64,000 nt of DNA from Bacteroidota bacterium (GTDB lineage: Bacteria; Bacteroidota; Bacteroidia; Flavobacteriales_D; Crocinitomicaceae), in the NCBI GenBank assembly GCA_016192075.1, contig JACPUU010000002.1, forward strand, positions 62,001-126,000, written 5' to 3'. Below the pieces are notes generated by a model. That model was not told the DNA's origin, searched no databases, and saw nothing but the letters and a program-made list of their open reading frames with translations. Made by a program: the position numbers and the translations under genes. Shown here one piece after another: positions 45,745-63,921 of the stretch (its first letter is position 1; each line of letters starts with the position of its first letter).

Positions 45745-45816
45745 TGCGGGGTGGAGCAGTGGTAGCTCGTCGGGCTCATAACCCGAAGGCCGTCGGTTCG
45801 AGTCCGGCCCCCGCTA
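45745..45816 (+). tRNA. tRNA-fMet (CAT), initiator
   Basis: A complete cloverleaf fits: acceptor TGCGGGG/CCCCGCT, D stem GAGC/GCTC, anticodon stem TCGGG/CCCGA with loop CTCATAA (anticodon CAT at 45777-45779), T stem GTCGG/CCGGC with TTCGAGT loop. Three consecutive G-C pairs in the anticodon stem, the 1-72 mismatch and the A11-U24 pair are initiator hallmarks. The 3' end is A then CTA, so CCA is not encoded exactly. Confidence 0.95.
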
Positions 45817-45871
45817 CTAATACAAAAAGAGAGTTAAATCCTCTCGCCGCAAGGCACTTAGAATTGTTTAC

Positions 45872-47886: not shown

Positions 47887-49380
47887 TTATACGACTTCGT
47901 TAAAAGCAATTTGCATTGATCCACCGGCATTGAACCTGCCATACTGAATTGCTTTTCCGCGTTCCGGTATTTCAATGATAATATCAACGTCATGCTGGAA
48001 TCCGTTTCCACCTCGGAAAATTCCTTGTTTTGTCACCTGGAAAATGTAGATAAAAGCCTTGTCAGGATATTGTGCTTTTAATTCGTCCAGGTCTGATGGT
48101 CGTAGCCCAAGTTTCGTTACGCTATCCAGGAAAATAAATTGATATGCACTCAAATCTTCCGGCAGGTAATTTGACACGTCCAGTTTTTCATGGGCGACGC
48201 TTTGCAACTTCTCCTTAATCGTATCATCAATTCCTTCTTCCTGGGCGACATACAATACACGTCCGTGATTGCGGGCAAGATAACCTGCCCACTCAACGGC
48301 AAAATAGGATTTGCCCATTTTCGGTTTGCCTGAAATCATAGCGGTAAAATCAGGTGAAGGATCGCCAATTAATTCTAACCACTTTCCGGTAAAACCGAGT
48401 TTTGGAAAATCCATTTCCACCACATCAAGACTATTCATTATGGTTTTTTCAGGTACTCGGCTAATACCATTCAGGACACCGCTTATTTCACAACCGCAAT
48501 CACTCAAAATTCCGTTCAGACCATTCAGTTCACGTTGGTCAATCCGCAAAAGACCTGTTCGCGGATTCTCGCGGATAAAGGCTTCAAGACGTTTCGTGAT
48601 TTTGAGAATTTCCGGCCAGTATTTGTCTTTCTCGTCAACCTTTTTCGGGATCGCATTTTTAATTCGTGCAGCAAGACTTTTTACTTTTTGCGTTTCAATC
48701 ACTTTTCCCTGAAGACTGATATAGCTCTTTATGAATTTGACCGAAGGATATTCGATTTCATTTCCAAGCAGAGGACGCAATTCATTCAGGAGCGATTCAT
48801 TCAGCTCCACCACAATTCCATGCCGGTCATTGCGGAATTTGGAATGAAGTTTCAATAACAGTTCCTGTATGCGCATGATCTCAGGAGCATATTTCGAGGT
48901 CTTGGTGATCTTGCGTTCCCGGATTGATTTTTGCAGGGCATTGATGAACAGCCGGATTTGATTCCGGTCTTTCTTTTTGTCGTTGAGATTAACGAACCTG
49001 CGAATGAATTTCAGTTCCAGGCTGGTCAGCTCCACAAGGTTTGACCGGTGTGATTTCGCTGGCTCCTTCTTTGCCTGTGAAGCTGTTTTTCGCTCCTTTG
49101 GTATAGCAGTCCTGGGTTTATCCTCCGACTTTTTTTCGGTTTCTTTTTTGGTTGTTGCCGCTTTCGGTTTCTCCAGGCTTTTAAAATACTCATCCAGTGT
49201 CTTGAAATAGGTATTAACGATGCGATTAATATTTTCGCTCGTGTCATACTTTTGCCAGGTTGTTCCGTCTTGGGTAGCTTTGCTGACAAAGTCAAATCCC
49301 TTTTGGAGGGCTGGTGGTAAATCGTTACGATTAATTTCACCCTTCTCTACCTTTTCAAAATAATTCCGTTGCGTAATCAT
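47887..49380 (-). CDS. RecA-fold ATPase with helical N-terminal region
   Basis: Length 497 aa. The C-terminal ~170 residues form a RecA/RepA/KaiC-type ATPase: Walker A SGKPKMGKSYFAVEW near residue 349, a Walker B-like FIFLDSVTKL near 413 and an IYIFQVTKQ strand. The first ~290 residues are Lys-rich and helical with two repeated-looking segments (LTSLELKFIRRFVNLNDKKK; YPSVKFIKSYISLQGK), perhaps a DNA-binding region. It could be a helicase loader or replication protein. It is not an A32/FtsK-type packaging ATPase. Confidence 0.75.
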   Translation of the reverse strand: MITQRNYFEKVEKGEINRNDLPPALQKGFDFVSKATQDGTTWQKYDTSENINRIVNTYFKTLDEYFKSLEKPKAATTKKETEKKSEDKPRTAIPKERKTASQAKKEPAKSHRSNLVELTSLELKFIRRFVNLNDKKKDRNQIRLFINALQKSIRERKITKTSKYAPEIMRIQELLLKLHSKFRNDRHGIVVELNESLLNELRPLLGNEIEYPSVKFIKSYISLQGKVIETQKVKSLAARIKNAIPKKVDEKDKYWPEILKITKRLEAFIRENPRTGLLRIDQRELNGLNGILSDCGCEISGVLNGISRVPEKTIMNSLDVVEMDFPKLGFTGKWLELIGDPSPDFTAMISGKPKMGKSYFAVEWAGYLARNHGRVLYVAQEEGIDDTIKEKLQSVAHEKLDVSNYLPEDLSAYQFIFLDSVTKLGLRPSDLDELKAQYPDKAFIYIFQVTKQGIFRGGNGFQHDVDIIIEIPERGKAIQYGRFNAGGSMQIAFNEVV

Positions 49381-49387
49381 AACTCTA

Positions 49388-52300
49388 CTATTTAAATGAC
49401 AGGAGCAACAGCTCCAATTCTAACTCCAATGCTTCCGCCTCCAATTCCAGAAGCTCCATATCGTCACCCTCGTCTTCACTTGCACTCTCTTGGGGTGGCA
49501 GATCAATTTTTATTTTTCGTTTTGATTGGGTTTCCACCAAGCCGACTGCATCAATCTGAGCCTGATACAGCGCAACTGTAATTCCAAGGTCGTTTTGCAG
49601 TATTTCAGTAAACCCAACCAGATTTTTTTCGTGCAGTGTTGCCACCATCCGGTCAGAAACTTTTTCAAAAATGTTTCGCTCGACGAGGGATAACAAACCC
49701 TGATGCAGGTAAATGTCACCGCCCCGTTTTTTGGAAGCTGGAACATTCACTTTGTATTCCTCATCATTTTGTTTGAAAAAAGCAATGTCGCCACTGGCCT
49801 CAACCACCGAACCTTTTGTCAGGGACTGAATAACACGGATGGCTTTTGCAATTGGAACAATCACCTTGCCGTCCGTTTCCTTTTCCAGTTCCCAATATTC
49901 CGGAAGCAGAATTCCTTTTCGCACTTGTTCATCAGCCGTTGTAAAACTGACCAGCTTGCCTTTGAAATCAGAAAATGCTTGCAGCAAGTTTCCGGTAACA
50001 ATGTGCCGGATACCCCGATCTTTGGTATTGCGCGTAATGCGCTGTTCCCATTCTTTGAGCGTAGCTTCTAATCCATTATCGGCTATGTTGAATGTTGCAC
50101 CTTTAATTGAATTCAGCTCTTTGATGTAGCTTGCGGGAATTGCTACAAATTTCTGACTACTTGCAACGGCAAATTTTAGCAGTACTGCACTTGGCGCAAA
50201 AGGATTTTTTTTCTTCCGATCAATATGAAATCCGGTAAAAATGGCCAGTTGATTTGCAATAGCTCCTTCGTAAAAATCGACCGGGTATTCAATCCGGCGG
50301 CCAATGGTAAAGAATTTGAAAAGCCCCCGCAAAAAGGTATTTTGGTTCGTGGATCGGATTTGTTCGTCATCAATGCGTTTTAATTTAGCTGTCTCCAATT
50401 CTTTGATTCGTTCCTGGATCAATGTCTGGGCATGTGCAGCCTTTCCCATTTCGTAAAGTTTCTGAACTTTCTTTTCATTGGGAACTTCTTTGATGAGGTC
50501 ATGGTAATGATCGCTTACTTCATTGATTTTTAACTGGAGTAAATTTGCTGCAATACCTTCATGTTCTTCCACCAGCGCATTCATAATTTGATCTGGTGTT
50601 TTTCCATCCAGGTTATCCTGGATCAGGTTTTTCACTTCCGTTGTTTTGAACGGTTTTTTTAAAATGTTGACTTCGCATTTTTCCAGAATACTATCCTCGC
50701 CAAAACTGCTAAAGCCCCCTTTGCCAATTTTAACAACCGATTTGGAAATCATTTTGGCTTTTAAATCCAACTGTTCCACTTCCAGATCATAATCACCCGT
50801 TTGCCGGAGGTATTCTACATAGGTATCATATCGTTCTTTGATCTCCCGGTAAAAATCTTCCTGCATCTTGGTAGAAAGAACCGCTACACGACCAGAGACT
50901 TTGTGCGCAGCACCTTCTTTTACCGGCATATCACCATCCTCAGCCATGCCCAGGGGATCGCCTAAGAGCAGATTGATTTCAGGATTTTCTTTCAGGTATT
51001 CAACCACCACATCATCGCCATACTTGTTCAGAAAATCGGGTACGTCTAAAATGTCATTACTCTGCTTTTGATTGGATGAAGTATTAGCATCGAGACTTTT
51101 GAGTTTCTTTTGCAGCATCATCATCAATCGTTGTTCGGCTGGAATGGCCGAGTTCATATAATCGTAAATCGGTTTTAAAATTTGTCCGGTGCGGTGAATG
51201 CGTCCGCGCTTTTGTACTTCGGTGTTAATATCCAGTTCCGGTTGCAGCACGATCATAACCCGTTGGCGAACTTTGTCAGCCGGTACTTTGTCAGTTACGA
51301 TAGCATGGGCAGAAGCTCCGGTGCTACCGGATTGATTAATCAGCAGCACATCAATTTCATTGTCGTTAAATTGCCGGAACGCATCGTTTGTGTTCACCCG
51401 TTTGCGTGGTTTGATTAAACCCATTCCCGTCTCCAGGTTGAGTTGCAGCCTCACTTTTCTTCCCGTTACTTCGGCAACCGAATAGCCCGCCTTTTGAATC
51501 CGTTGAACGATTACATCTATTGGAGAAATTGTAATTCCGGTGGAGACGGTGCGGATCTCGCGCATGATGCGTGCGTACTCATTTTGTGCATCGATGGAAA
51601 ACTCCGTCAGGTCAAAGAGCTTGTAGGTTTTTGACCCATCCGGTGCAATCACCGTATAACGCAGCACTCCTTCCAAACCCTTTTCCAGGACAATGGCAAA
51701 ATCAGCACGAACCGTATCACCTTCCACCACATGTTCACCCGCTTCATCTTCCATCTTCTCAATGAAACTTCCCATTGTACTGGAAAACGCAATCAGCGGT
51801 TTTTTGCCTTCTTTCAAGCGGACAATGGCACGTTCTGCCACCGCTTCCGCTTTGATCGAAAACAACATCTGGTTGATGATGTTGAACACTTTGGAAAAAT
51901 AAGGCAGGTTGTCTACACCCGCCTTGTTGGTTCCCTCACGCAGGTCAACCTCTTCTCCTTCGGCGGCGGCAATTTCATCCATTTCACTCACCCGTGTGGT
52001 CACATATTTTTCCTGGAAGGCGATAATGGCACGGATAATCCGGGTGATGTTGTCTGCGATACTCATGTGTGCCTGTGCTAATTCGGTAAGCGTGATATAG
52101 TTCACTTCCACGCCCTCATAGGTGCGTTCCCTGCGGATCATCTGACCTTCGGCTACGAGCTGGCTGGCTAATACTTCCTGAAGTGCAACACCCCCTTTGA
52201 GAATGGCCATCACCAGTTCCTCTTTGGTCATATTGGCTTCGGAGATAGCCGTTTTCATCGCATAGATCGGCATGTTGTCCGGGCGTTTGGCAAAGGTTGC

Positions 52301-54610
52301 AGAAAGGAAAACCGCACCTCGCGCTTTTTCCAGAACCGACTGCATATACACCCCGGTATTGGATGAACCGCTGGCGTTGTGGCTTTCATCCATGATGACA
52401 ATTGCCCCGTTGGCAATTTCATTGAGCCATTTTGGTTTTTCTGATTTTTTTTCTGGTGAATTAAATTGAGAATAAGTCGCCACCACATAATCAAATCGTG
52501 AAGGAACAGCCCCGGATTCAAAAACCTGCTTTTGTTCAGGTGTGGTTAGCGCTTCATAAATGACCTCTCCGTTTTCATCTTTGACCTGGGTTTTTGCATC
52601 CCGCGCATTGACAATAAAAGGAACAAGGTGTGCAGAGCCAATCGCTTTTAAATCGCGGTAAATGTCAGAAAAGAGGTTTGCCTTTTCCGTTAAAAATATC
52701 GGCGTCACGCCCTGCTGCACCGCATAACGAATGACCGCTGCTGCTACGCGCCCTTTCCCGATTCCGGTTTGGTCGCCAATGATGACTGATTGATTTAAGG
52801 CTTCAATGTTGTAGATAGCCAGACCCACTGCATCAATCTGTTCAGCCGAGAGAGCTTTGCATAATTTTAGTTTGGTTGGATAACCCAGCCGATGCCGCAC
52901 AAAATTATCCATGTCTCCACCGACTTCTTCTTTTATTTTACGCACCGCTTCGTGCATTTCAAAACTCATGGCATCGGGTACTTGCGTTTCCAGTGTAAAG
53001 CAGGATTCAGAAGCGGGTACGTATGGTGCGTCCAGGGTTTGTGCTAATAATTCCGCTTCCAGTTCCAGGGCTTCCAATTCCAGGTCAGTCAGCGAATTTG
53101 TATTTTCATGCTTAGTGGTTTCGTCCGCCATAATCCGGTTATACAGCTCGTCAAAGGACCGGACAACATGTGCTGCCTCATCCGTTCTGAGTGGAGCTGC
53201 CCCGTAAGGAATTACTTTGCGGCTGTCGATCAGAATCAATCGCGTATCGAACGATGTTCCCTGGCGGGAATATAAACTTGCGCCATCAATGGCAATAACA
53301 TCCAGCACATTATAATGACTGTACAGGTAATTAAAAAAAATCCGGTTTTTTCCTTTTTGAATTCTTCCCTGTTCATCCCATTTGGTATGCCCGCCGATAA
53401 TGATAGCAGCCATTCCGTCATCCTGCATGGTGTCCAGGGCTATCAGTGCCATCAGGTGATCCAGTTCCTTAATCGGAAATGATCCATACATGACGGGCTT
53501 ATCCAGCGTTCCAAAGGGAGGGTTTGTTAATACAACATCGAATTTTTTTTGGTATTCTGTAAATGGTTGCGAGGCATCTTGCGCAGTGACCAATTGATAA
53601 TCCTGTGCTTCCAGATTTTTGCGCCGGATGGGATCAACTTCATTGACAATCACATTTTGCGGATCGGAAAGAATCGTCAAAAGACCGTTTCCTGCGGAAG
53701 GTTCAAAGACGGATTTTGGTTCGTGTATTTCCGTGAACAATCCCATTAAAAATGCAATAGGTGCGGGTGTAGAATATTGTTGCAATAAAATACTTTTTGA
53801 CGTGCGGAAAGATAAGTTTGCCTGTTGCTGATAAACGGCGGCAATTTTAGTATACCGCTCCCGGAATGAACCTGATCCCCGAGCAATGGATCGCGTAACT
53901 TTTACAATAGCCAGTTCAGTCAGCTCTTTGATTTTTGTTTTATCCGCAATGGAAAAAGATTTTGCAAGTTTTTCTAAATCCGTTCTTGACTTTTTTTCCT
54001 TATTGGCCAGTGATAAAACCACTGCCTCCACATACTTTTTTTCTTGCACTGCACTATTGGTCTTCTGTGATTCTGCGCTACTGTGGTTTTGCCGGATAAG
54101 CTCAGTTTCTATTGGAATAATCGGATAGGGGCTGGATGTATGTCCCATCAAACCCTGAACCTCGAACGAATAGAAACCATCCCTCGTGACAATGATATGA
54201 TCGAGCAGGTGAATACCGAGAAGTTTAGCCGCCACTTTTAATTGTTTTGTCGTATTCAGATCTGCCGGGCTTGGGATTAAATTTCCGCTTGGATGATTGT
54301 GACAAATAACCATTGCTGTGGCCAACCCCTTGAGCGCTGCGGCAAGGATTATTCTGCGGTCAACCGAAGTAGCATCAATTCCTCCGGTTGAATGCCGGTA
54401 ATACCCGATAGGATAAAAATTGTTGTTCAGGTAAATGACGAACATACTTTCATTCATTTGAATTTCGCCCGATGCAAAAAAAGATCGGAGCGCAACCGCT
54501 AAATCTTCTGGTGTATTGACCTGCTTAAATCCCTTAGCGACTTCCCAATTGTAATGCAGGGTGATTTCAGGTATCTCAATTTTTCTGCTATTGTTTTCTG
54601 CGTCATTCAT
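49388..54610 (-). CDS. RadC-like / N6 methyltransferase / Strawberry-notch helicase fusion
   Basis: Length 1,740 aa. Residues about 1-155: RadC/JAMM domain with HNHPSGNLIPSPAD. About 260-480: adenine methyltransferase with motif I FEPSAGNG (near 303) and NPPF (near 362). About 600-1180: SF2-like Strawberry-notch helicase with Walker A GDQTGIGKGR (near 612), DESHN (near 737), SGSTGASAHA (near 1090) and RGRIHRTGQ (near 1133). A C-terminal part to 1740 has no match that I know; it ends in acidic Leu-rich repeats. Phage P1 DarB, an antirestriction protein injected with DNA, has the same methyltransferase-helicase logic. Confidence 0.9.
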   Translation of the reverse strand: MNDAENNSRKIEIPEITLHYNWEVAKGFKQVNTPEDLAVALRSFFASGEIQMNESMFVIYLNNNFYPIGYYRHSTGGIDATSVDRRIILAAALKGLATAMVICHNHPSGNLIPSPADLNTTKQLKVAAKLLGIHLLDHIIVTRDGFYSFEVQGLMGHTSSPYPIIPIETELIRQNHSSAESQKTNSAVQEKKYVEAVVLSLANKEKKSRTDLEKLAKSFSIADKTKIKELTELAIVKVTRSIARGSGSFRERYTKIAAVYQQQANLSFRTSKSILLQQYSTPAPIAFLMGLFTEIHEPKSVFEPSAGNGLLTILSDPQNVIVNEVDPIRRKNLEAQDYQLVTAQDASQPFTEYQKKFDVVLTNPPFGTLDKPVMYGSFPIKELDHLMALIALDTMQDDGMAAIIIGGHTKWDEQGRIQKGKNRIFFNYLYSHYNVLDVIAIDGASLYSRQGTSFDTRLILIDSRKVIPYGAAPLRTDEAAHVVRSFDELYNRIMADETTKHENTNSLTDLELEALELEAELLAQTLDAPYVPASESCFTLETQVPDAMSFEMHEAVRKIKEEVGGDMDNFVRHRLGYPTKLKLCKALSAEQIDAVGLAIYNIEALNQSVIIGDQTGIGKGRVAAAVIRYAVQQGVTPIFLTEKANLFSDIYRDLKAIGSAHLVPFIVNARDAKTQVKDENGEVIYEALTTPEQKQVFESGAVPSRFDYVVATYSQFNSPEKKSEKPKWLNEIANGAIVIMDESHNASGSSNTGVYMQSVLEKARGAVFLSATFAKRPDNMPIYAMKTAISEANMTKEELVMAILKGGVALQEVLASQLVAEGQMIRRERTYEGVEVNYITLTELAQAHMSIADNITRIIRAIIAFQEKYVTTRVSEMDEIAAAEGEEVDLREGTNKAGVDNLPYFSKVFNIINQMLFSIKAEAVAERAIVRLKEGKKPLIAFSSTMGSFIEKMEDEAGEHVVEGDTVRADFAIVLEKGLEGVLRYTVIAPDGSKTYKLFDLTEFSIDAQNEYARIMREIRTVSTGITISPIDVIVQRIQKAGYSVAEVTGRKVRLQLNLETGMGLIKPRKRVNTNDAFRQFNDNEIDVLLINQSGSTGASAHAIVTDKVPADKVRQRVMIVLQPELDINTEVQKRGRIHRTGQILKPIYDYMNSAIPAEQRLMMMLQKKLKSLDANTSSNQKQSNDILDVPDFLNKYGDDVVVEYLKENPEINLLLGDPLGMAEDGDMPVKEGAAHKVSGRVAVLSTKMQEDFYREIKERYDTYVEYLRQTGDYDLEVEQLDLKAKMISKSVVKIGKGGFSSFGEDSILEKCEVNILKKPFKTTEVKNLIQDNLDGKTPDQIMNALVEEHEGIAANLLQLKINEVSDHYHDLIKEVPNEKKVQKLYEMGKAAHAQTLIQERIKELETAKLKRIDDEQIRSTNQNTFLRGLFKFFTIGRRIEYPVDFYEGAIANQLAIFTGFHIDRKKKNPFAPSAVLLKFAVASSQKFVAIPASYIKELNSIKGATFNIADNGLEATLKEWEQRITRNTKDRGIRHIVTGNLLQAFSDFKGKLVSFTTADEQVRKGILLPEYWELEKETDGKVIVPIAKAIRVIQSLTKGSVVEASGDIAFFKQNDEEYKVNVPASKKRGGDIYLHQGLLSLVERNIFEKVSDRMVATLHEKNLVGFTEILQNDLGITVALYQAQIDAVGLVETQSKRKIKIDLPPQESASEDEGDDMELLELEAEALELELELLLLSFK

Positions 54611-54812
54611 GATACACCATATTTGCCCTCAACTCATCCACTTCCTGCCTGAGTTCACGATTTTCGTGTTCCAGCTGCTCCATCCTTTCATCCTCTCCAC
54701 TATACACCTGGCGCAGCACACCCACATAAAATCCGATGCTTCCAATAAATCCAATGACTGATAAAATGAACGTGGCTTTGTCGTATGCTATTTTTCCTTC
54801 CTTCGTCTTCAT
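54603..54812 (-). CDS. Membrane/coiled-coil peptide
   Basis: Length 69 aa: one membrane helix (FILSVIGFIGSIGFYVGVL) followed by a coiled coil (RMEQLEHENRELRQEVDELR). The stop overlaps the start region of the large fusion gene by 8 nt. A spanin-like or virion-membrane role is possible; nothing specific is recognised. Confidence 0.7.
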   Translation of the reverse strand: MKTKEGKIAYDKATFILSVIGFIGSIGFYVGVLRQVYSGEDERMEQLEHENRELRQEVDELRANMVYHE

Positions 54813-54828: not shown

Positions 54829-55527
54829 TCAGGCTCTCACGGGCTTCTTTTGATCCAATTGTTCCAGCCACAGATAACCAAGGGTGAGTATGGTCACTAC
54901 GGCAAGACCAATTGCCGCCCGGCGCATTGTCGCTTTAAACTCCATGCGCTGATCGATCAGCGTGTAGGTGAATCTGTTGCCGTACAATTTGCGGTGAGCC
55001 TCACAGAGTTTCATAAAAATTTCAAATTCAACTGCCTTTTGAAAGACCTGACAACCGGCAGAATGACTTTCAACTTCGTAGGTTGTTCCGGTCCTTTTTG
55101 CACGATGAATATTTACCCCAAACATTCCGCTATATAGTTTGCCGTTATTAAAATCCAGAATGGCATTGCGATTATAATCACGGTAAACGTTCACCTTTTG
55201 CAACCGCTGACACAGCGCTTTGTATTTGCCCAGGTGCAGATCAATTTGATAGGTGTCCACGTACTGCCCAGGTGCAAGCATCGCCGTTCCCTGCGGGTGC
55301 AGCGGGTTTCTGAGCCAGTATGTTCCCGGATCAGTTGTACATTTAAAAACAAAATACGCCCACTTTGCAATCCGTGTTTTAGAAGTATTGAAAAACACGT
55401 GCAGCTCATCATCAAACTTGTTGGGTTCTTCGTTCTTTGAACGGATTCCCCAAATATTCAATTTGAACGGTTCGCGATAGATCACGAAATTATTCTTACG
55501 GGCAATATTTCTGATTTTCCCGATCAC
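54829..55527 (-). CDS. Cell-wall-hydrolase-like protein with YkuD-type motif (copy A)
   Basis: Length 232 aa. An N-terminal domain (KNNFVIYREPFKLNIWGIRS) is shared with the next gene. The second half has GVNIHRAKRT and SHSAGCQVFQ, that is His138-x16-Cys155 in S-x-G-C, the arrangement of L,D-transpeptidase or related peptidase cores. A membrane helix (RAAIGLAVVTILTLGYLWL) is at the C-terminus. It may open or remodel peptidoglycan during entry or exit. The family assignment is inference. Confidence 0.6.
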   Translation of the reverse strand: MIGKIRNIARKNNFVIYREPFKLNIWGIRSKNEEPNKFDDELHVFFNTSKTRIAKWAYFVFKCTTDPGTYWLRNPLHPQGTAMLAPGQYVDTYQIDLHLGKYKALCQRLQKVNVYRDYNRNAILDFNNGKLYSGMFGVNIHRAKRTGTTYEVESHSAGCQVFQKAVEFEIFMKLCEAHRKLYGNRFTYTLIDQRMEFKATMRRAAIGLAVVTILTLGYLWLEQLDQKKPVRA

Positions 55528-56090
55528 GCGTTTTCCTGTTTAAAATCGATTTCTTCCAGCATGGTACAGGCACATAAATTGCCGTGACTGATCGCCTGGG
55601 TAAAAAGGAATAGTAGGGTTTCAAATCCGCAGCTTCCTTTGCGAAATTTGCCGAATGCCTGAACTGCGACACCTTTTTCTGACGGATGATTTAACTCGAT
55701 CTGGTGCGCTCTCAGGCCATAAATCAGATCGTACTTTTGTGCAATGATTTCTTCTGCGTCACAAGGGTTAGCTATGTCTTCACTGATTCGTGCGTCATAC
55801 AGAATTTTGTCCCGGGCGTGTGGCTTCCGGTCGATGAATGAACAAGCATCCAAACCTAGTTCCGTTTTAATATATTCCAATGCCTCCTGCATGGTAAATG
55901 GAAAATAAACGATGTGCTGTTCGTCATAATCGTCCTGAAAAACAACAACAACCATTTCGTGAAACGAGTTGTCTGATGTACGTCCGCAGCGAATGCCAAT
56001 AACGTTCAGCTTATAGGATTTTTCTTCGTGCAACACAAAGTTCTTGTGAGCAAAAACCCGTTTGATTTGTTTGATAGTTGGCTTAAACAT
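55524..56090 (-). CDS. Paralogue of the hydrolase-like protein (copy B, motif changed)
   Basis: The frame is open to 56261, but ATG 56090 (MFKPTIKQIKRVFAHKNFVL) gives 188 aa and avoids most overlap. Its N-terminal half aligns with copy A (KSYKLNVIGIRCG against PFKLNIWGIRSK). Where copy A has NIH and SAGC, copy B has YGLRAHQIE and RKGSCGFE, so the His-Cys pair is not conserved in the same form. No C-terminal membrane helix. It overlaps copy A by 4 nt. It could be an inactive partner. Confidence 0.6.
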   Translation of the reverse strand: MFKPTIKQIKRVFAHKNFVLHEEKSYKLNVIGIRCGRTSDNSFHEMVVVVFQDDYDEQHIVYFPFTMQEALEYIKTELGLDACSFIDRKPHARDKILYDARISEDIANPCDAEEIIAQKYDLIYGLRAHQIELNHPSEKGVAVQAFGKFRKGSCGFETLLFLFTQAISHGNLCACTMLEEIDFKQENA

Positions 56091-57009
56091 AACAGATACA
56101 TTTTGTGTTCGTGTAAAGAATTTGTCCGTCCAATGTCTGAAAGCGGGTGATACCGTTTCGTCCGTCCAGAAATTCACCCAGGACCGTATGGCGCGGAACG
56201 TTGATAGCAGTTCCTTTGGCATTCCAAACACGGGTAGGTGCAATGGATTTGATCTGGTCACACAGAATTTGTCCTACACCGCTCAATGACCATTGGCTGC
56301 CGTCGTACTTCAAACCCATGCGGTAAAATTGTTCGTTGAGTTTTTTCTTTTGAGCGTCCTGGTAGAATTTTGTCAGCAAGGCGTTTACAATTGTTTTTCG
56401 TACACCGTTAATTCTTGTTTTCTTGAATTCTTCATTGACTGTTGTATATCCTTTTACCGTGAATATTTTACTCAGGGAGGTGAGTGCTTTGTCCAGGTTG
56501 TTATCCAGGATCGCCAGGCGCAAATTGGTAGCAAGCAACACCGGATCAAATTTGGGTTTGTCGGTTGTGGTAGTCGTTGCCGGAATATTTGTTGTGGTGA
56601 TGAGTTGCGTAAAAGCATCTGCATCAATATTCGTAGGAAGACCTTTTGCTATCAACGCCGTGTCCATTTCAGAACCCCATACGCCATCTGCTCCGTATTT
56701 TGGCAGAATCGCAGCGCCGTATTTTTGAATCAGCATCTGCTGAATATTTTTCACCAGCTCTCCACGGCTGCCTTTTTTCAGCGGAAAGCCGCTGGAGCTT
56801 CCGCCGGATGATGCGCTCGATTTTGGTTCATCTTCTTCTGCTGTTGGAAAAAGCAGATCATCCGACACCATACTACTCGTTGACTTGTTCCGGTTGGCCA
56901 TATAATAGATGCCTCCGGCAAGTGCCACAATACCAAATCCGATCAGAATATATTTTCCGGTATTGCTTTTTTTCTCCAGCTGTTTCGTATTCCCTTTTTT
57001 CTTTTCCAT
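56083..57009 (-). CDS. Membrane-anchored peptidoglycan-binding protein
   Basis: Length 308 aa. A membrane helix near residues 19-38 (YILIGFGIVALAGGIYYMA), a Ser/Gly-rich linker, then a PG_binding_1 domain at about 74-118 (FPLKKGSRGELVKNIQQMLI, GADGVWGSEMDTAL). The rest (RVWNAKGTAINVPRHTVLGE) is beta-rich and unassigned. A Shine-Dalgarno AGGAGAG precedes the ATG. It fits attachment of a membrane-containing particle to the cell wall or envelope passage. Confidence 0.75.
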   Translation of the reverse strand: MEKKKGNTKQLEKKSNTGKYILIGFGIVALAGGIYYMANRNKSTSSMVSDDLLFPTAEEDEPKSSASSGGSSSGFPLKKGSRGELVKNIQQMLIQKYGAAILPKYGADGVWGSEMDTALIAKGLPTNIDADAFTQLITTTNIPATTTTTDKPKFDPVLLATNLRLAILDNNLDKALTSLSKIFTVKGYTTVNEEFKKTRINGVRKTIVNALLTKFYQDAQKKKLNEQFYRMGLKYDGSQWSLSGVGQILCDQIKSIAPTRVWNAKGTAINVPRHTVLGEFLDGRNGITRFQTLDGQILYTNTKCICYV

Positions 57010-57030: not shown

Positions 57031-57795
57031 TTATTTTCTTGGTTTGCTTAAAACCATGCGTCGGTATTTATTCATTTCTTCCGCTGACAGATCGCCTCCC
57101 AGATCGTCCATGATTTTTACACCATATTCAATCTCATATTCTTTGGCAGTGTCTAAAAAGGCTTGTTGCGTGGGTATTTCCAGGACAACAGCATCAATGG
57201 CATCTATGTCTGTTCCCCAAAACATTCCCCAGGTCTGGTAATTCACGGCGGCATTAATGCGCTGCGCCCAACCTTTCGGATCGTAAACTGCAACTCCTTT
57301 TTTTGCATCCTTTGCTTTTTCCGGTTTGCTTTTGATGATGGCAAGCATTTCAGTGTATTCAGTTTGCGAAAGCTCACCAGTCATATCTGACACTAACTCT
57401 TTACCCTCTGTCATGCGTCGGTATGAATCGCTGACTTTTTCAAAGTCCTCACGCGAAGGAATTTCGCGGAGTGTTTTCCGCAGGAGCGGTTCATTTGTAC
57501 CGGGTTTGTAGTCATTGATAAAGGCGTTGCTGATTTGTTTTGCCCAGGTTGCGTGCTGATCTTCACCCAAACTTTTACTTTGCTCGTGGCTGGCAACTTT
57601 TTCTTTGATGATCTTGTTGCCAAAATAAAAAGCAGCCACAGCAATCACAGAGATACCCAACGCGATCGCAGTTGATGTTATGATCTTGCGCTGCCCTGGG
57701 GTAAGACTTGTCCACCAGGATTGTTTACCTGCTTGCTGAACAACTACGGTGGTCTTATCTTCCCGCTGCTGTGCTATGGCTTTTGACTGGCTCAT
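57031..57795 (-). CDS. Membrane protein with two annexin-like repeats
   Basis: Length 254 aa. A membrane helix lies at residues 38-58. Two 59-residue repeats follow, 99-157 (GTNEPLL ... GELSQTEYTEM ... SKP) and 194-252 (GTDIDAIDAVVLEIPT ... KEYEIEYGVKIMDDLGGDLS). They follow the annexin repeat pattern: GTDE start, a helix, Y-x3-YG-x-DL-x-x-DL and a Gly-x-LS step. Annexin repeats bind Ca2+ and membranes in eukaryotes; bacterial versions are rare. Topology puts the repeats on the far side of one membrane. Confidence 0.65.
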   Translation of the reverse strand: MSQSKAIAQQREDKTTVVVQQAGKQSWWTSLTPGQRKIITSTAIALGISVIAVAAFYFGNKIIKEKVASHEQSKSLGEDQHATWAKQISNAFINDYKPGTNEPLLRKTLREIPSREDFEKVSDSYRRMTEGKELVSDMTGELSQTEYTEMLAIIKSKPEKAKDAKKGVAVYDPKGWAQRINAAVNYQTWGMFWGTDIDAIDAVVLEIPTQQAFLDTAKEYEIEYGVKIMDDLGGDLSAEEMNKYRRMVLSKPRK

Positions 57796-57814: not shown

Positions 57815-57994
57815 TCACACTCCTAAAAACTTCTTAGCCAATGCCACTTTGCCAGGATCAGATTTTACAACTTCCGCTAACTTCTTTAGCGTTGCAGCAT
57901 CTAAGTAAGCTGCCAATGTTGCCAATGCTTCTGCCTTTTGTCCGGCTTCTTGCTTAGTACCACTGATGGTAATTTTGAAACTATGCTTTTCCAT
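57815..57994 (-). CDS. 59-residue conserved-looking small protein
   Basis: A short reading frame (MEKHSFKITISGTKQEAGQK ... KFLGV) in an otherwise unexplained gap. It starts 13 nt inside the end of the preceding gene, as most genes here do. The sequence is a plausible compact alpha/beta domain with KITISGTKQE and TLKKLAEVVKSDP. Not recognised. Confidence 0.55.
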   Translation of the reverse strand: MEKHSFKITISGTKQEAGQKAEALATLAAYLDAATLKKLAEVVKSDPGKVALAKKFLGV

Positions 57995-58793
57995 TTTCTG
58001 TCTTTTTTTGATCCAACGCCTCTTTTATTTTCTCCCCGATGTCCGGGTTAGCTGCTAATACCGCCAGCCAGGTGAAGGCTTTTATGATCGTTTCCTCTCC
58101 AAACTTTTCATGCAGGCGTTTGTAGATTTTTAATGATTCGGTTTCATCCGTTTCTTCTTCTTCCTCCCCGTCCGGCTCGATACTTGCCTCTGCTTGCGGT
58201 TGTACTGGCGTACCAGCTAAGCCGGAATTTTTGGCGGCTGCGATGTTTGAAAATACCCCGCCGATGGTGTTTACCCACTTTTCGGCAGTGTCTGCACCAC
58301 TGGGTATTTCTTCTTTGAGCTTTTTGATTTTTTTATCCTTTTTCAGGATGGCCTCCTGCGCTTCAATCAACTTGGTCCTGGTGTTTTCCAATTCCATTTT
58401 CACGCGTTGTTCTTCCACCGCACGGTCAATCTGTGATTGCATGTCGGTTGCTCCAACCATGCCTAAACCACTTGCAGATTTATTCGGAATAGTGAAAACA
58501 TATTTGTTGCAGTTGGGTGAAGTACCCTGGAACATTTTAACTTCCACATGGCGGGTGTACTCGCACAGGAAGCGTTCGTAGTCATCAAATTTCCGGCTGT
58601 CACAGGTACGCTGCACAACTGTTTCACCGTCCACACTGATGGAGTAATATTTGTATTCACTCTGGTTAAAAAAAGCCAGGATTAAGTTTTTCAGCCGTGC
58701 GATAGCAGCTCTGCTGTATGGCTCGGTAAAGACCTGGGTTCCGTTTCCTCTTACCTCAATGTCTTTTTCGTTTGTGTTTTCTTGTTGTTCCAT
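57981..58793 (-). CDS. Element protein with N-terminal alpha/beta domain and coiled coil
   Basis: Length 270 aa, not recognised. Residues 20-105 form a compact domain (RAAIARLKNLILAFFNQSEY, GETVVQRTCDSRKFDDYERF), followed by a coiled coil (about 120-170), an acidic linker with a run of Glu and a helical C-terminus. No membrane segment. A structural or scaffolding role is possible. Confidence 0.65.
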   Translation of the reverse strand: MEQQENTNEKDIEVRGNGTQVFTEPYSRAAIARLKNLILAFFNQSEYKYYSISVDGETVVQRTCDSRKFDDYERFLCEYTRHVEVKMFQGTSPNCNKYVFTIPNKSASGLGMVGATDMQSQIDRAVEEQRVKMELENTRTKLIEAQEAILKKDKKIKKLKEEIPSGADTAEKWVNTIGGVFSNIAAAKNSGLAGTPVQPQAEASIEPDGEEEEETDETESLKIYKRLHEKFGEETIIKAFTWLAVLAANPDIGEKIKEALDQKKTENGKA

Positions 58794-58796
58794 GAT

Positions 58797-59126
58797 TTAT
58801 GATTTTTGTTTTTTCTTTTGCCTGGGTATTGCCTGGATGAATCGGGCATCATTTTGTACCAGGCTTTGATTTGTTACAGAGATGATTCCGCGATGCAAAT
58901 GTTGTTGCTCGTTGATGGTCTGATCACGCATATCGTAAATCCCGGCCTTACTCTCCACTTTGATGTTGGCTTGCGGATCTATCAAAACAAAGAGGTGATT
59001 CTCTGCTTTAATAATTCGCTTTTCGCTTTCTTTCAGGCGCAGATGGCGATAGCGGACGATGTAATCAATCACACCTAATTCGCACATCTGGTAGCGGATA
59101 ATTTCTATGGCAGCTCCTTCAGTCAT
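58797..59126 (-). CDS. Element protein, unknown function
   Basis: Length 109 aa, basic, no membrane segment. Visible segments are EIIRYQMCELGVIDYIVRYR near the N-terminus and RDQTINEQQHLHRGIISV in the second half. It overlaps the beta-rich gene at 59119-59565 and ends 4 nt before the next gene. Not recognised. Confidence 0.6.
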   Translation of the reverse strand: MTEGAAIEIIRYQMCELGVIDYIVRYRHLRLKESEKRIIKAENHLFVLIDPQANIKVESKAGIYDMRDQTINEQQHLHRGIISVTNQSLVQNDARFIQAIPRQKKKQKS

Positions 59127-59565
59127 TGATTTCGAGTTCTATGTAAATTCTCAGTGAATAGCTGACCGCCGACAGTGGTGTTTCGTCCACGTAATAACCT
59201 TCAATAATTGTTTCTTCGATGGCAACGTGTGTAGTAAAGAAGTCGCGCTTCCAGCCGCTGAACCACCATTCGGGTTGTGTAGTCAGGATCGGTGGCGTGA
59301 TGGTGTGAAATTCAACCTGCAAATGGTTGTATTCTTTTACATCCTCTGCGTAGAATACATCCCGGCATTCTGGGATGCGCAGCCACAATGAACCGGTACT
59401 TTCCACGCGCGGATCTTCGCCTTCAACCGGTACATATTCGGTGTTGGGGCTGATCGTTGCCAGCAAGCCTGTTATACATTTGCACGTGACGGGTAACTTG
59501 ACCTGGAACTGTATTTTGGACTGACGGCTTTTAATTTCTTCAATATGGATGATCACTTTTTTCAT
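59119..59565 (-). CDS. Beta-rich candidate structural protein
   Basis: ATG 59565 (MKKVIIHIEEIKSRQSKIQF) gives 148 aa. Strand-rich with alternating hydrophobic residues (LPVTCKCITGLLATISPN, YSLRIYIELEIND), consistent with a single jelly-roll or similar sandwich. It overlaps the stop of the preceding gene by 4 nt. Function unknown; capsid or spike-like role inferred from context. Confidence 0.6.
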   Translation of the reverse strand: MKKVIIHIEEIKSRQSKIQFQVKLPVTCKCITGLLATISPNTEYVPVEGEDPRVESTGSLWLRIPECRDVFYAEDVKEYNHLQVEFHTITPPILTTQPEWWFSGWKRDFFTTHVAIEETIIEGYYVDETPLSAVSYSLRIYIELEIND

Positions 59566-59960
59566 GAAATGGTTTTTGATTTCACTGTTGAAAAAAAGTA
59601 GAAGCTCACGCGATAGGCACTGAATGGTGCGCTTGGGTGTGCAGTGTCTTTGAACCACACTTCAACTTTTCCGTTGCCGGTTGAAATGAAGCCGATTTTA
59701 ACCACCCGTGAATTAGGTGCAACACCTAAACCCGACATGAGTAGCTTGGATTCAAAATCTTCCGGAAAAAGTTCCTGGTCATTGATCTGGATTTTTTGCG
59801 AACCCCGGTAGTACAGATGACCATCGTTGTCACTGGTTACTGCAATACCAAAAAGGCGGTCTGCGTTTTTATCCAGTTCAAATTCTCCTTTTTTAACCTC
59901 ACCTGCGGTGCTGACCAAAATGTCGAACCTCTCTTTTAATGTATTGTGCTTGTAGCTCAT
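59562..59960 (-). CDS. Beta-rich candidate structural protein
   Basis: Length 132 aa. Begins with a short helix then GEFELDKNADRLFGIAVTSD, GSQKIQINDQELFPEDFE and KIGFISTGNGKVEVWFKD. A GEFxLxxN segment also occurs in the candidate capsid protein at 60059-60766 (GEFSLKANKKQI), suggesting a shared fold. It is the first gene after the terminator that follows that gene. Confidence 0.6.
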   Translation of the reverse strand: MSYKHNTLKERFDILVSTAGEVKKGEFELDKNADRLFGIAVTSDNDGHLYYRGSQKIQINDQELFPEDFESKLLMSGLGVAPNSRVVKIGFISTGNGKVEVWFKDTAHPSAPFSAYRVSFYFFSTVKSKTIS

Positions 59961-60058: not shown

Positions 60059-60766
60059 TCAGGGTGTAGTGGCTGTTCCGTCCAACGCGCAGTAGAGATA
60101 CTGTTCTGGTGGAATGGAGAAAGTTGTTCCCAACTCGACCACGAACTCAATGACCTCTTCGTCCCGAATCAATCGTGGATTGTCAAGCTTGTAGTAACCC
60201 ATCTGAACGGTGGTGTCATTGTCGGTAATGAACCGGCGGTTAGACTGATTCTCCGGGATGATCTGTTTTTTGTTTGCTTTGAGACTGAACTCTCCGTTGG
60301 CAATTGCCGGTATTGCGGAAATAGTCCGGTAGTTGACTGCTTTATTCGCTTCCGGGTCGGCGAGGTTGGTTGTTACCCCGGTCAGGAGAATCAAACCACT
60401 TACCATGAACACCGAATTTTTCGGAAGTTTTGCATTGGAAATATTGCGAACCCCGACTTCTTTGTCGTCCTGCGATTCAAACATTTTGATCGTTTTGGAC
60501 GTGATTCGTTTTGTTGAATAAATCGTCCAGTCTGCCAGGCGCAAAGTTCCCTTAATCAATTCTTGTTTTACATTGTCTGGTAATTGTTTAAAGAACTTTT
60601 CCATCTCGCCGCGTGAACGGCGCGAGTTTTTGACCTGCTTTGACATTTGGGAGATAGCTTTTACACGTTGTTCGGGCGACATATTCCGTGTCGCTTTTTC
60701 GATCTCTCCGAAGCCAAACAATTCTCCCACATTGTTGTACTCCGAATCCATGATTTCATCAATCAT
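60059..60766 (-). CDS. Candidate major capsid or structural protein
   Basis: Length 235 aa. Residues 1-85 are helical and basic (GEIEKATRNMSPEQRVKAIS; SRRSRGEMEKFFKQL), and from about 85 onward the protein is strand-rich (NISNAKLPKNSVFMVSGLIL, DNDTTVQMGYYKLDNPRLI, ELGTTFSIPPEQYLYCALDG). The size is too small for a double jelly-roll but fits a single one plus an N-terminal arm. A private terminator follows, as expected of an abundant product. No family hit can be claimed without structure prediction. Confidence 0.55.
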   Translation of the reverse strand: MIDEIMDSEYNNVGELFGFGEIEKATRNMSPEQRVKAISQMSKQVKNSRRSRGEMEKFFKQLPDNVKQELIKGTLRLADWTIYSTKRITSKTIKMFESQDDKEVGVRNISNAKLPKNSVFMVSGLILLTGVTTNLADPEANKAVNYRTISAIPAIANGEFSLKANKKQIIPENQSNRRFITDNDTTVQMGYYKLDNPRLIRDEEVIEFVVELGTTFSIPPEQYLYCALDGTATTP

Positions 60767-60887: not shown

Positions 60888-61511
60888 TTAAAGGGTATTG
60901 AAGTCCAGCTCTTCTTCCATCAGAGCATAGTTCAATCCTTCTAAAATTTCCCCTTCACTTGATCCTTCTTCCTGTTGTGCTTTTTTCAATTCGTATTTCA
61001 CTGCAGCTTCTTTGTTGAGGGTCTCAAAGGCATCTAACTCCGTCAGGTCAATTGCACCTACCGGCGCATCCTCTGCTGGTGCATCGGTTTTTGGCCCGAT
61101 GAGTTTGTCCAGAAAGGTTGCTTTGAGCCAGTTGTCTTTCAGATCAATCAACCGTTCTTTTGCTCCGGTTGCAATTGCTCCCAGAGTGATTCCTTCAACT
61201 ACTGCTGCTGAAGCAGATGCACGGTTTTCTTTTGCTTTGGCAATTCCGTAACCAATACAGGCTGCACCTGTAATTCGCAGTAAACCGGTTTTGTCTCCAA
61301 AATAATGACCGGTTCCGATGAGCAGCAGACCCAATAGCGGAGACCATACTCCGAATAATGCGCCAGCACCTGCTCCGGCTACGGTAGCCGAAGCGCCTTC
61401 GACAACCATCTTAATTGCCGAGTGTCCGACTTTTCCTTTTGAATCCTCCACGTAACGCTCGTACATTTTTTTGCCTTTCGAGCCGTTACCATTTCCTTTT
61501 TTCTTAGCCAT
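60888..61511 (-). CDS. Gly/Ala-rich membrane protein
   Basis: Length 207 aa. The start is basic and Gly-rich (MAKKKGNGNGSKGKKMYERY), followed by hydrophobic stretches (ASATVAGAGAGALFGVWSPL, LGLLLIGTGHYFGDKTGLLR, AACIGYGIAKAKENRASASA) and an acidic tail (EEGSSEGEILEGLNYALMEE). Alternate small residues in hydrophobic segments are typical of membrane proteins in internal-membrane viruses, but also of others. No family recognised. Confidence 0.65.
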   Translation of the reverse strand: MAKKKGNGNGSKGKKMYERYVEDSKGKVGHSAIKMVVEGASATVAGAGAGALFGVWSPLLGLLLIGTGHYFGDKTGLLRITGAACIGYGIAKAKENRASASAAVVEGITLGAIATGAKERLIDLKDNWLKATFLDKLIGPKTDAPAEDAPVGAIDLTELDAFETLNKEAAVKYELKKAQQEEGSSEGEILEGLNYALMEEELDFNTL

Positions 61512-61537: not shown

Positions 61538-63406
61538 TTACAGCAGCTCAATTCGCTTTGCTGTGTATTTTTTACTTTTATTTTTAGCAGGTTTTTGTTT
61601 TGTGGCAGACTTGCTTTTATTTTTGCTCTTGCCTTTGGGTAATCCGTCAACGCCGTTCTTTGCTCCTTTGGATTTTCCCTTTTTAGATTTCACAAGAGCG
61701 CGGATTCCAAAAAATGCCCCGGCTGCTAATCCCAAACCGATCAGGGAAGCTGTCACTTTGTTATCTGAGATCCATTGCCCCAAGCCTTTTTTCTCACCAC
61801 CGTCTGCTGCGGCATCCCGGTTCTGAACTGGGCTATCACCGCTACCAGTCTCGTCTGCGTTTGCGGTATCATCTCCACCCGTATATTCATCTTCGGGGAT
61901 GATTTCCAAATTGTCCTCATAAGCCGGATCTTCTTCGGTTACAATGATCTGTTCACCGGTATCGGTTGACCCGGGTGATTCTGATTTTTTCAACGCTTTG
62001 TTTTCGCGGCGCTGTTGGATTTTGGATTTCACCTTGCTTACAATGTTCTTTACGCTGAACTTGCGGGTCGCTTCGGCAGCGTTGTCGGTGTTCGCTTTGA
62101 TCTGCATTTTCTGTTCACCGATTGACCCCTTCTTAAACAGGCCACCCAACTTTTTAACTAGGGCAGAAATGGAGGCAAGCACACCACTTGCTGCGGTTAC
62201 CGCTGCACCGGCTGCTATCGCTGATCCAAGGTTGCCCAGGCCATGCAGCCCGTCAAACCCGGCAAGTTCCTGGTAAAAAATATCGTCTCCCAGGATTTTT
62301 TGTAAGTCGTCTTCGTCGCGCACTTCAGGAATGATTGCACCCAATCCGTTTAGCTGAACCAGTTTGTCCTGGTTTCCTTTTCCTTTCAGGATTGATTCTT
62401 TCAGCGCGTTTGCATTTCCACCTGCGGTATAGTAAATTTTTTCCAGCTTCACCCTGATCTGTTGGAGCTGGTCAAATTTTTCCATGTCCATCTGGTTCTT
62501 TTCTGCTTCTGCTTTTGTCCAGTAGGCAAAGCGCAGGTTACTTGCGACCTTGAATAAATTGAGCTTCATTGAAGCCAGGATTCCGGCACGCAGCAAAGCC
62601 GTAGCAGGGTTGAGCTTGTTCACCGCGTTTATTCCTTTTTTGAGCGCCGCTTTTACTTTTGCTTTCACCTGTCCAGGATTCGCTTTGCGCTCTGCTTTTT
62701 TTTCCCGGCGTTCAGCTCTTTTTGCTGCATCACCAAGTCCATAGAATTCTATTTCATCCCGAAACAAATCCTCGGCATCTATCGGCAGCTCGTGAATGAA
62801 TTTGACCTTTTCGCCAAAATCATTGTCGCGTTCTCCCTCGATGCCATTCAAATACTGTAAATCCATTTGTTCGTCTTTTTTTTGTGTGTATGGCACTTCA
62901 TAATTGAATTGATGCACTACACAGTCGATGATTATTTCTTGTCCATCGGGGCTTATTGCTACGGGGTAGATGTGTTCAAAATCTGCCGCCTTGTAGCGGG
63001 TCATTCGCATAATAAATGGTATTCCCAGGTTGGTCAGAATTGACCCGATAAGAACTGTGAAGCAGTCACAATCCACTCCAACGTCTAAGCGGATATTGTC
63101 CCCGCGATCTGCCCAGGAACGTGCCGGTCGCCGCACCTGTTCCTTCCGCTCTTCGTCCTTCTTGTACTGGAAGTGCCAAAAGCAGAAGTTCCAGATTTTC
63201 TTACAGGTCGGTAACACACCCGCTCCCTGTAAATGGTGTGCGATTTTTTTTGTGTCATCAAGCGTCTCTTCGATGACTCTTTTGATAAGCGACATGGTAT
63301 CATCCAACGTCGCTCCTTTTTTGACCATAATGAAGTCTCCTTCAGTCTTTGGAAAGTAGCTGTTAAATTCTCTGCCATTGACGATATTTCTCCAACCAGT
63401 TTTCAC
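61538..63406 (-). CDS. Transglutaminase-like/papain-fold membrane protein
   Basis: GTG start at 63406, 622 aa. The N-terminal ~220 residues have a transglutaminase-like triad: Cys in DVGVDCDCFTVLIGSILT (near 112), His in FEHIYPVAISPDG (near 144), Asp in EIIIDCVVHQF (near 159). A Lys/Ala-rich middle leads to NPATALLRAGILASMKLNLF, a Gly/Ala-rich stretch and a C-terminal membrane helix (ASLIGLGLAAGAFFGIRALV). Such domains cut or cross-link protein or peptidoglycan. A maturation or entry role is inferred. Confidence 0.7.
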   Translation of the reverse strand: MKTGWRNIVNGREFNSYFPKTEGDFIMVKKGATLDDTMSLIKRVIEETLDDTKKIAHHLQGAGVLPTCKKIWNFCFWHFQYKKDEERKEQVRRPARSWADRGDNIRLDVGVDCDCFTVLIGSILTNLGIPFIMRMTRYKAADFEHIYPVAISPDGQEIIIDCVVHQFNYEVPYTQKKDEQMDLQYLNGIEGERDNDFGEKVKFIHELPIDAEDLFRDEIEFYGLGDAAKRAERREKKAERKANPGQVKAKVKAALKKGINAVNKLNPATALLRAGILASMKLNLFKVASNLRFAYWTKAEAEKNQMDMEKFDQLQQIRVKLEKIYYTAGGNANALKESILKGKGNQDKLVQLNGLGAIIPEVRDEDDLQKILGDDIFYQELAGFDGLHGLGNLGSAIAAGAAVTAASGVLASISALVKKLGGLFKKGSIGEQKMQIKANTDNAAEATRKFSVKNIVSKVKSKIQQRRENKALKKSESPGSTDTGEQIIVTEEDPAYEDNLEIIPEDEYTGGDDTANADETGSGDSPVQNRDAAADGGEKKGLGQWISDNKVTASLIGLGLAAGAFFGIRALVKSKKGKSKGAKNGVDGLPKGKSKNKSKSATKQKPAKNKSKKYTAKRIELL

Positions 63407-63921
63407 ACCTCAATTGTTGAAATAGAATCGTAAGGGTAGTTGCCAACTGCGGTGAACACGGTCGAGTTGATCTCTGCCTGAAACTTAACTGCTACTTGCT
63501 CTGCGGACGGGTCAAGCTTGTTTTTGAGTCTGGTTAACAGGTTGGCTCCTGTACCAACCAGTGAAATAAGTGGAAGAAGTATCTTCGTGGAAATAATACC
63601 TGTCTCGTTGTACGGTACTATTCTGATTCGCCCGTTGGCGGTTCTCACCGCTTCCGGAATCTCCACGAGCGCCATTGAACTGGAAGCTAATATCTTGCCG
63701 TTATGAGAGAGCTTCACTAATGGGATAGCCATCTCGATATTGCTGTTGGTGGGGTTTTTGATGTTGAATCTCAGTTCAATCCAAACCCCGTTCAAGGCCA
63801 CTTTATCCACTTTTCCGCTGGCTTCAACAACTGCTTTGTTTTGCGCCCGGTTGAGTGAAAAGAGGTATCTGCCGCCTAAAAAAACGGCTCCTCCGATTAC
63901 TATTATCCCTAATGCTTTCAT
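63403..63921 (-). CDS. Membrane-anchored LEA-2-like protein
   Basis: Length 172 aa. One membrane helix (MKALGIIVIGGAVFLGGRYL) and then a domain with WIELRFNIKNPTNSNIEMAI followed by KLSHNGKILASS, the pattern of LEA-2/WHy domains: a beta-sandwich with an NPT/NPN step. Usual roles are membrane or envelope contacts. Overlaps the transglutaminase-like gene by 4 nt. Confidence 0.6.
   Translation of the reverse strand: MKALGIIVIGGAVFLGGRYLFSLNRAQNKAVVEASGKVDKVALNGVWIELRFNIKNPTNSNIEMAIPLVKLSHNGKILASSSMALVEIPEAVRTANGRIRIVPYNETGIISTKILLPLISLVGTGANLLTRLKNKLDPSAEQVAVKFQAEINSTVFTAVGNYPYDSISTIEV

Follow-up and report, generated by a model that had tools for sequence, protein, structure and literature searches.

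Annexins are best known as calcium-dependent membrane-binding proteins of animals and plants, and the occurrence of annexin-like repeats in a protein encoded within an apparent mobile element of a Bacteroidota bacterium raises the question of what such a protein does there. The window analyzed here is the whole stretch of 64,000 nucleotides of contig JACPUU010000002.1, and the gene lies at 57031-57795, where the initial annotation had placed it. No strand had been given, and it proved to be the minus strand: the open reading frame runs from 57795 to 57031 and encodes 254 residues, whereas the plus strand across this interval contains 8 stops. The open reading frame, profile, model and structure matches support the view that the product combines a membrane anchor with two annexin repeats. 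A Kyte-Doolittle scan gave one hydrophobic segment, residues 37-60 (57616-57687, minus strand; value 2.27), in agreement with the single membrane anchor described ahead of the repeats; in the predicted model it falls within a helix spanning residues 33-75, with low pLDDT in that region.

The two repeats comprise residues 78-158 (57322-57564, minus strand; helices 80-92, 102-111, 115-128, 134-141 and 144-156) and residues 172-252 (57040-57282, minus strand; helices 173-184, 197-206, 210-224, 228-235 and 238-249). Residues 99-157 and 194-252 do extend from GTN or GTD to SKP, and the internal duplication first recognized from them stands. The proposed unit of 59 residues is nevertheless too short, because helix A stands before the GTD motif; the true units are of about 80 residues. 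Similarly, the 35-residue linkers described between the units had to be abandoned, as they contain helix A and the actual joint between the repeats is about 13 residues. The duplication is not a product of chance: the Smith-Waterman score of repeat 1 against repeat 2 is 79, compared to a mean of 23.8 (sd 4.2) for shuffled sequences, none of 2000 reaching 79, and a profile comparison in hhalign, with 55 rows for each repeat, gave a probability of 99.8.

Taken alone, the window protein matches the annexin model PF00191 at E 0.0057 with 17.2 bits, under the Pfam cut-off of 25, and annexin III weakly (E 0.0016 for the whole sequence, with no single stretch passing alone). At the level of the family, PF00191 is matched by 14 of the 16 aligned members, the window protein included, when matches are taken at E up to 1 (best E 9.3e-10), and several relatives exceed the Pfam cut-off (among them L103, 39.0 bits; L102, 25.7 bits; G829, 32.8 bits). 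A search of the PDB with the family profile returned 76 matches (best E 1.5e-13), the best 60 of the 76 all being annexins or annexin fusions. The AlphaFold2 model (mean pLDDT 73.8, pTM 0.60) contains five helices in each of the two repeats. Among the 50 Foldseek matches listed, 39 are titled annexin and the other 11 are PDZ-domain entries, three of which are named annexin A2 fusions in the PDB profile matches; the remaining eight we presume to be annexin A2 fusions of the same series. VIA-align Z-scores against annexins were 9.8-11.9 among the matches listed, values near 12 not being decisive on their own for helical folds. When the two repeats are taken together, the Foldseek TM-scores are low, at 0.26-0.33, and the rmsd is mostly 8-9 A; either the repeats pack against each other in another way than in annexins, or the model lacks precision. 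Profile and fold, the two grounds on which the initial annotation could have been refuted, thus uphold the annexin reading, and the window protein is an annexin-repeat protein of the bacterial kind. It is classed in this way, and not as a eukaryotic-type annexin, because the core of the latter is built of four tandem repeats and the window protein has two; a single repeat is found in L094, L099, L101 and L015.

The annexin gene is located inside a block of genes all on one strand, which starts at a tyrosine integrase (45954-47267, minus strand; PF00589, E 1e-7) and continues beyond the window, reaching at least 64.5 kb. A host tRNA-Met (45745-45817, plus strand; tRNA scan) lies beside the integrase end, and on the right side the first clearly host-type open reading frame, in our reading, starts near 66.7 kb in window numbering. 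The element would thus measure about 19-20.5 kb, its right end not being fixed because no convincing att repeat was found: the best exact repeats around the window element are of 14 bases (45315/68172, E 0.06), 13 bases and 11 bases (45824/66398), none beyond what chance would give over the lengths searched, and in G061 and G005 the surroundings of the block ends contain none of 12 bases or more. A tRNA gene was present at the element in four of five scanned stretches, namely tRNA-Met in the window, tRNA-His in both G061 and G005, where it is located at the end of the block, and tRNA-Asp near a second copy; the scan of G069 returned none, its 10.8-kb contig lying within the element. The second, diverged copy resides in the same genome as the window, near the tRNA-Asp (G000:C16:194000-210000; L020, L021); its annexin is 62% and its capsid-like protein 83% identical to those of the window copy.

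G061 and G005, which belong to different families, have 20,198 bp in common at 96.45% identity; between G069 and G061 the common sequence is 10,850 bp at 97.0% identity. The occurrence of a near-identical element in genomes of different families indicates that the unit moves horizontally. The copies at L028 with L029, L030 with L031, and L032 come from three genomes, each placed in a different bacterial family, and their identity of 96-97% is a sign of recent transfer; L032, a short contig from a draft assembly, may have been misbinned. The description of the product as a membrane protein of a mobile element is therefore borne out by its hydrophobic segment, a conserved gene module, the tRNA sites and the 20,198-bp element common to two families.

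The module was examined in 59 loci found in GTDB contigs with the annexin alignment as query, using tblastn at E 1e-3. Relatives of the protein encoded directly downstream from the annexin gene, a membrane-anchored member of a family with a peptidoglycan-binding domain (56083-57009, minus strand; 308 aa; phrog endolysin matches; hydrophobic segment 20-39), are present in 59/59 loci; PG_binding_1 itself is detected in two of six aligned members, the window member not among them. A small 59-aa protein (57815-57994) and a 109-aa protein (58797-59126), both on the minus strand like all module genes given here, each have relatives in 57 loci. They are followed in frequency by a 232-aa protein of the phrog_3000/endolysin-associated family with a C-terminal hydrophobic segment (54829-55527; 56/59), a 132-aa protein (59562-59960; 55/59) with one weak match only in a PDB profile search (E 0.16), a predicted capsid-like protein of 235 aa (60059-60766; 54/59) and a 622-aa protein with three hydrophobic segments (61538-63406; 52/59). 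In the five loci lacking a 235-aa match (L050, L060, L088, L093 and L096), the annexin match begins less than 2.8 kb from the locus start in every case. For the 622-aa protein no relative of solved structure was found; two of six aligned members of its family, the window member not among them, carry a DUF553 transglutaminase-like domain.

The other module genes are less widely shared: a 207-aa protein with a hydrophobic segment (60888-61511; 38/59 loci), a 1740-aa fusion of RadC/JAB, methyltransferase-like and Strawberry-notch helicase regions (49388-54610; 37/59), a 172-aa protein with an N-terminal hydrophobic segment (63403-63921; 34/59), a 270-aa protein (57981-58793; 31/59), a 179-aa protein (59119-59658; 18/59), a small 69-aa protein with a hydrophobic segment (54603-54812; 16/59) and a 245-aa open reading frame (55524-56261), with relatives in only 7/59. 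A 497-aa P-loop ATPase resembling AAA_24/AAA_25 and phrog_6891 lies at 47887-49380, minus strand; its matches to AAA_24/AAA_25 are below the cut-offs of these families, and its P-loop region has a weak phrog match named Zot-like toxin (E 0.086). In Lishizhenia tianjinensis CGMCC 1.7005, another carrier of the element, a patatin-like phospholipase gene (L044:18696-19874) stands beside the ATPase gene, near that element's end. With the Kyte-Doolittle line set at 1.6, six module proteins besides the annexin (69, 232, 308, 207, 622 and 172 aa) contain a hydrophobic segment capable of anchoring; the 235-aa protein, in a predicted strand, and the 1740-aa protein reach 1.62, barely above the line.

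Few module proteins are as well conserved as the one of 235 aa, which has 38-83% identity to 30 relatives. Its model (pTM 0.69) consists of N-terminal helices and eight strands, and VIA-align Z-scores were 8.6 for PBCV-1, 8.4 for SPV1, 8.0 for EhV-201, 7.5 for SH1, 7.3 for PRD1 and 7.2 for both HCIV-1 and P23-77; Foldseek matched EhV-201, SGIV and SPV1 at E 6e-5 to 6e-4. A non-viral peptidylglycine monooxygenase scored 7.2-7.7 in the same VIA-align list, the non-viral rows of the two lists comprising this enzyme, furin, BcsB and Kex2, and a viral structure library returned a mixture of capsid, movement and uncharacterized proteins for the model. Owing to these non-viral rows, the capsid reading rests on fold plus context. 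Given the integrase, the lysis-type genes and the synteny, the best reading of this predicted structure is a single jelly-roll capsid protein.

The linkage between the two genes was assessed with PF00191, a model independent of the window family, in three overlapping Bacteroidota samples and 14 control genomes. Positive genomes were 2 of 296 in the phylum sample (3 places), 8 of 399 in the order sample (10 places) and 12 of 395 in the class sample (15 places), with none among the 14 control genomes in all three runs. After removal of five class places already counted and the merging of two that share a gene, 22 distinct genes in 18 genomes remain. For 21 of these 22, a capsid-like homologue is located 2.1-3.2 kb away on the same strand, in one of them (L182) as an open reading frame split into two pieces; in the lone exception, G791:C121, the annexin gene is 2.0 kb from the contig start. 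Many bacterial annexins detectable with Pfam thus have a consistent genomic setting, beside one capsid-like gene. Divergent members escape PF00191, the window protein at E 0.001 among them, and the test is accordingly limited to genes detectable with this model.

Conversely, an annexin gene is present at 32 of the 34 capsid-like places of the order sample, the two others being G548:C24, a fragment, and G661:C670, whose contig ends after 2.5 kb on the side where the annexin gene would stand. Searching IMG/VR with the capsid-like gene yielded two contigs, and each of them has an annexin gene as well. The annexin alignment query, a scan which rests on two short peptide patterns, found none in IMG/VR, and single-protein scans of IMG/VR and GTDB contigs with the window protein returned no relatives. 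Plasmid tblastn matches in Komagataeibacter and Acetobacter (E 0.7 and 0.8) were weak and taken as chance. Collectively, the linkage of annexin-type genes to a capsid-like gene in the sampled genomes suggests that annexins can be parts of viruses.

Four architectures of the annexin protein occupy the same place in the module: 1) a transmembrane helix and two repeats, in the window and most loci; 2) a transmembrane helix and one repeat (L094 of Fulvivirga, 144 aa; L099 and L101 of G145; L186); 3) a transmembrane helix and one repeat with a C-terminal extension, 322-358 aa in total (for example L015, L156-L160, L164, L179 and L187); and 4) a divergent single repeat in a 150-aa protein of the circular plasmid pPP10. 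A simple reading of this distribution would be a single-repeat ancestor with a later duplication.

From these data, the annexin protein is probably a membrane protein that serves in the virion or in its assembly; the provirus encoding it would be tailless and is likely to contain a membrane, and the repeats would provide Ca2+-dependent membrane contact. The annexin gene would be conserved within the structural gene set of a provirus of about 20 kb integrated at a tRNA gene. The virus itself would lack a tail and have a capsid protein of the single jelly-roll type; the many membrane-anchored module proteins make an internal membrane probable. In the proposed mechanism, the single transmembrane helix would anchor the protein in the membrane that supplies the virion membrane. 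Each of the two repeats would coordinate Ca2+ with its GT loop and the acidic residue of its D/E turn and, through this ion, attach to acidic phospholipid. The protein may in this way hold the viral membrane to a second membrane, either that of the host at entry or a vesicle fitted into the capsid during assembly. What the computations give is annexin homology with a predicted fold, the anchor, the duplication, site residues kept throughout the close family, and a capsid-like gene linked to the annexin gene; we infer from this that the jelly-roll protein would serve as capsid, that virions may form and include the annexin protein, and that the latter would bind calcium and lipid. Phage sequences weigh against this reading: tblastn detected neither the annexin nor the 235-aa protein in 50,697 phage records, and the 24 of these records with a relative of the 232-aa protein include crAss-like and other Bacteroides phages, which we take to be tailed.

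The calcium site bears on this mechanism. The type II site of annexins, as described in the 2014 survey, consists of GxGTD between helices A and B and a glutamate in the D/E turn (PMC3894181). Its residues were compared in 58 distinct annexin sequences (E < 1e-5), rows without letters being excluded for each column. In the close family, GT is found in 57/57 rows with letters in repeat 1, where Asp or Glu occupies position 141 in 57/57; in repeat 2, GTD is found in 55/55 and Asp or Glu at position 235 in 56/56. The loops of the window protein read KPGTN in repeat 1 and FWGTD in repeat 2, those of relatives GWWGTD and GWGTD. The first glycine of GxGTD is often absent or shifted in the family, and the window protein lacks it in its first loop. 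Within a sister group of one-repeat proteins, TT stands in place of GT in L158, L160 and L182, and the calcium site is thus not universal. Judged by these residues, Ca2+ binding by the annexin repeats is plausible.

In an alternative explanation, the annexin fold would have been kept as a scaffold that binds capsid or other virion proteins, with calcium or lipid binding lost or never present. The loop lacking the GxG glycine, the TT substitutions, the low TM-score over the repeat pair and the divergent single repeat of the pPP10 relative would all fit this explanation. We nonetheless hold it to be rather unlikely, since the invariance of GT and of the acidic residue in the 55-57 rows of the close family goes beyond what a scaffold would be expected to need.

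Another possibility is that the virion reading misplaces the protein, which would instead act from the host inner membrane as a host-takeover or lysis factor, remodeling the envelope or spanning the membranes for egress, and stay outside the virion. The gene environment offers several arguments for such a function: the gene directly downstream from that of the annexin belongs to the family with a peptidoglycan-binding domain, the phrog_3000/endolysin-type protein comes next, and Amidase_2 genes follow as neighbors in L056 and L062. However, the annexin gene stays within 2.1-3.2 kb of the capsid-like gene with small conserved genes between them, and the peptidoglycan-binding neighbor is itself membrane-anchored and could also be a virion protein. 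A role in lysis or host takeover is therefore considered unlikely.

The viral nature of the element has also to be weighed against a non-viral, integrative plasmid-like element in which the jelly-roll protein would build a structure other than a capsid, served by the annexin protein. The plasmid pPP10 of Persicobacter psychrovividus (NZ_AP025302.1; L098, L168) lends this some weight. It encodes relatives of the capsid-like, 622-aa, Strawberry-notch and ATPase proteins and, at the same place, the 150-aa transmembrane protein with one annexin-like repeat (PF00191, E 0.005; family profile, E 5.1e-5). It differs from the window element in being a circular 53-kb replicon with ParA, ParB and replication genes, its module genes being annotated mostly as hypothetical. 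Moreover, no terminase, portal or FtsK-like packaging gene was recognized among the proteins scanned, nor an FtsK/HerA-type packaging ATPase, the only P-loop ATPase found looking AAA_25-like. Against a non-viral element stand the top structural matches, which are capsid proteins of tailless or giant viruses, the lysis-type genes, the integrase with its tRNA site and the two relatives in IMG/VR; phage-plasmids would account for pPP10, which is likely to be one. An element of non-viral nature thus appears improbable, and the provirus reading is retained.

Compared to SPV1 and to the tailless single jelly-roll viruses with an internal membrane, SH1, HCIV-1, HHIV-2 and P23-77, the element is alike in its predicted single jelly-roll protein, with moderate fold matches to their capsid proteins. 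Their second capsid protein and FtsK-like ATPase were not recognized here, and the hosts are Bacteroidota. We know of no annexin protein in these viruses. Simuloviridae genomes are given as 16-19 kb, and the window element is of similar size.

Eukaryotic annexins and giardins of the PF00191 family share with the window protein the five-helix repeat, the GT loop between helices A and B, the acidic residue of the D/E turn and the tandem arrangement of repeats. The protein differs from them by having two repeats in place of four, by its own transmembrane anchor and, in many relatives, by a longer loop before GT; the packing of the pair may differ as well. That short helical repeats built around a GTDE turn have converged on an annexin-like form is highly improbable, for although the single-sequence scores are weak and chance alone gives helical repeats middling structure scores, the order of helices A-E and both site residues agree with annexins, several relatives are over the Pfam cut-off, and the family-profile result, with only annexins and annexin fusions among the best 60 of its 76 matches, rules out chance.

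Among bacterial annexins, the 2014 survey describes proteins of one to five divergent domains, some with transmembrane regions and many from Bacteroidetes (Kodavali et al., 2014; PMC3894181). The proteins described here likewise contain divergent annexin domains significantly similar to the eukaryotic profile, and differ in that the gene belongs to a fixed, provirus-like module. The survey reports no annexins in viruses and no general clue from gene neighborhoods (PMC3894181). It also mentions Kordia pairs near metalloproteases and Microscilla proteins with lipase and toxin domains (PMC3894181), which implies that not every Bacteroidetes annexin is of the provirus kind. The three Bacteroidota samples did not show such settings. 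In the open-licence PMC literature without preprints, no viral, phage or provirus annexin of this kind was found among the matches listed.

Annexin domains have also been described in polymorphic and PVC-type (eCIS) toxins, as parts of bacterial proteins (PMC3482391; PMC8213781), which is the likeness to the present case. A toxin or eCIS role was considered and rejected: the scanned annexin-type proteins carry no toxin domain and, besides Annexin, only scattered weak families. Toxin, metallopeptidase and contractile-injection matches were likewise absent from the scanned module proteins, the weak Zot-like phrog match apart.

As a tentative extension, many, perhaps most, Bacteroidota annexins might not be genes of the cell but virion membrane proteins of a widespread, undescribed family of tailless proviruses with a single jelly-roll capsid, acting in Ca2+-triggered docking or fusion; we regard this as possible, with considerable doubt, in part because Bacteroidetes annexins are also reported from other settings (PMC3894181). 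If true, the patchy spread of bacterial annexins would be largely the spread of a virus, and virus-borne annexins would become candidate sources of the eukaryotic family. The linkage to the capsid gene would explain much of the patchy distribution, an open point in the 2014 survey (PMC3894181). Confirmation would add a membrane-contact module to the repertoire of tailless viruses and bring viruses into the debate on the origin of annexins.

Two further open reading frames of the window, away from the element, contain repeated sequences. At 30386-31048, a host protein is made of near-identical repeats (DWYVYSETGKVYKNDVLI...). At 18441-19253, an open reading frame of 270 aa, possibly a REP-type transposase-like protein, includes an internal run of the unit ATKDGA/KQDDA, which may be an expanded repeat.
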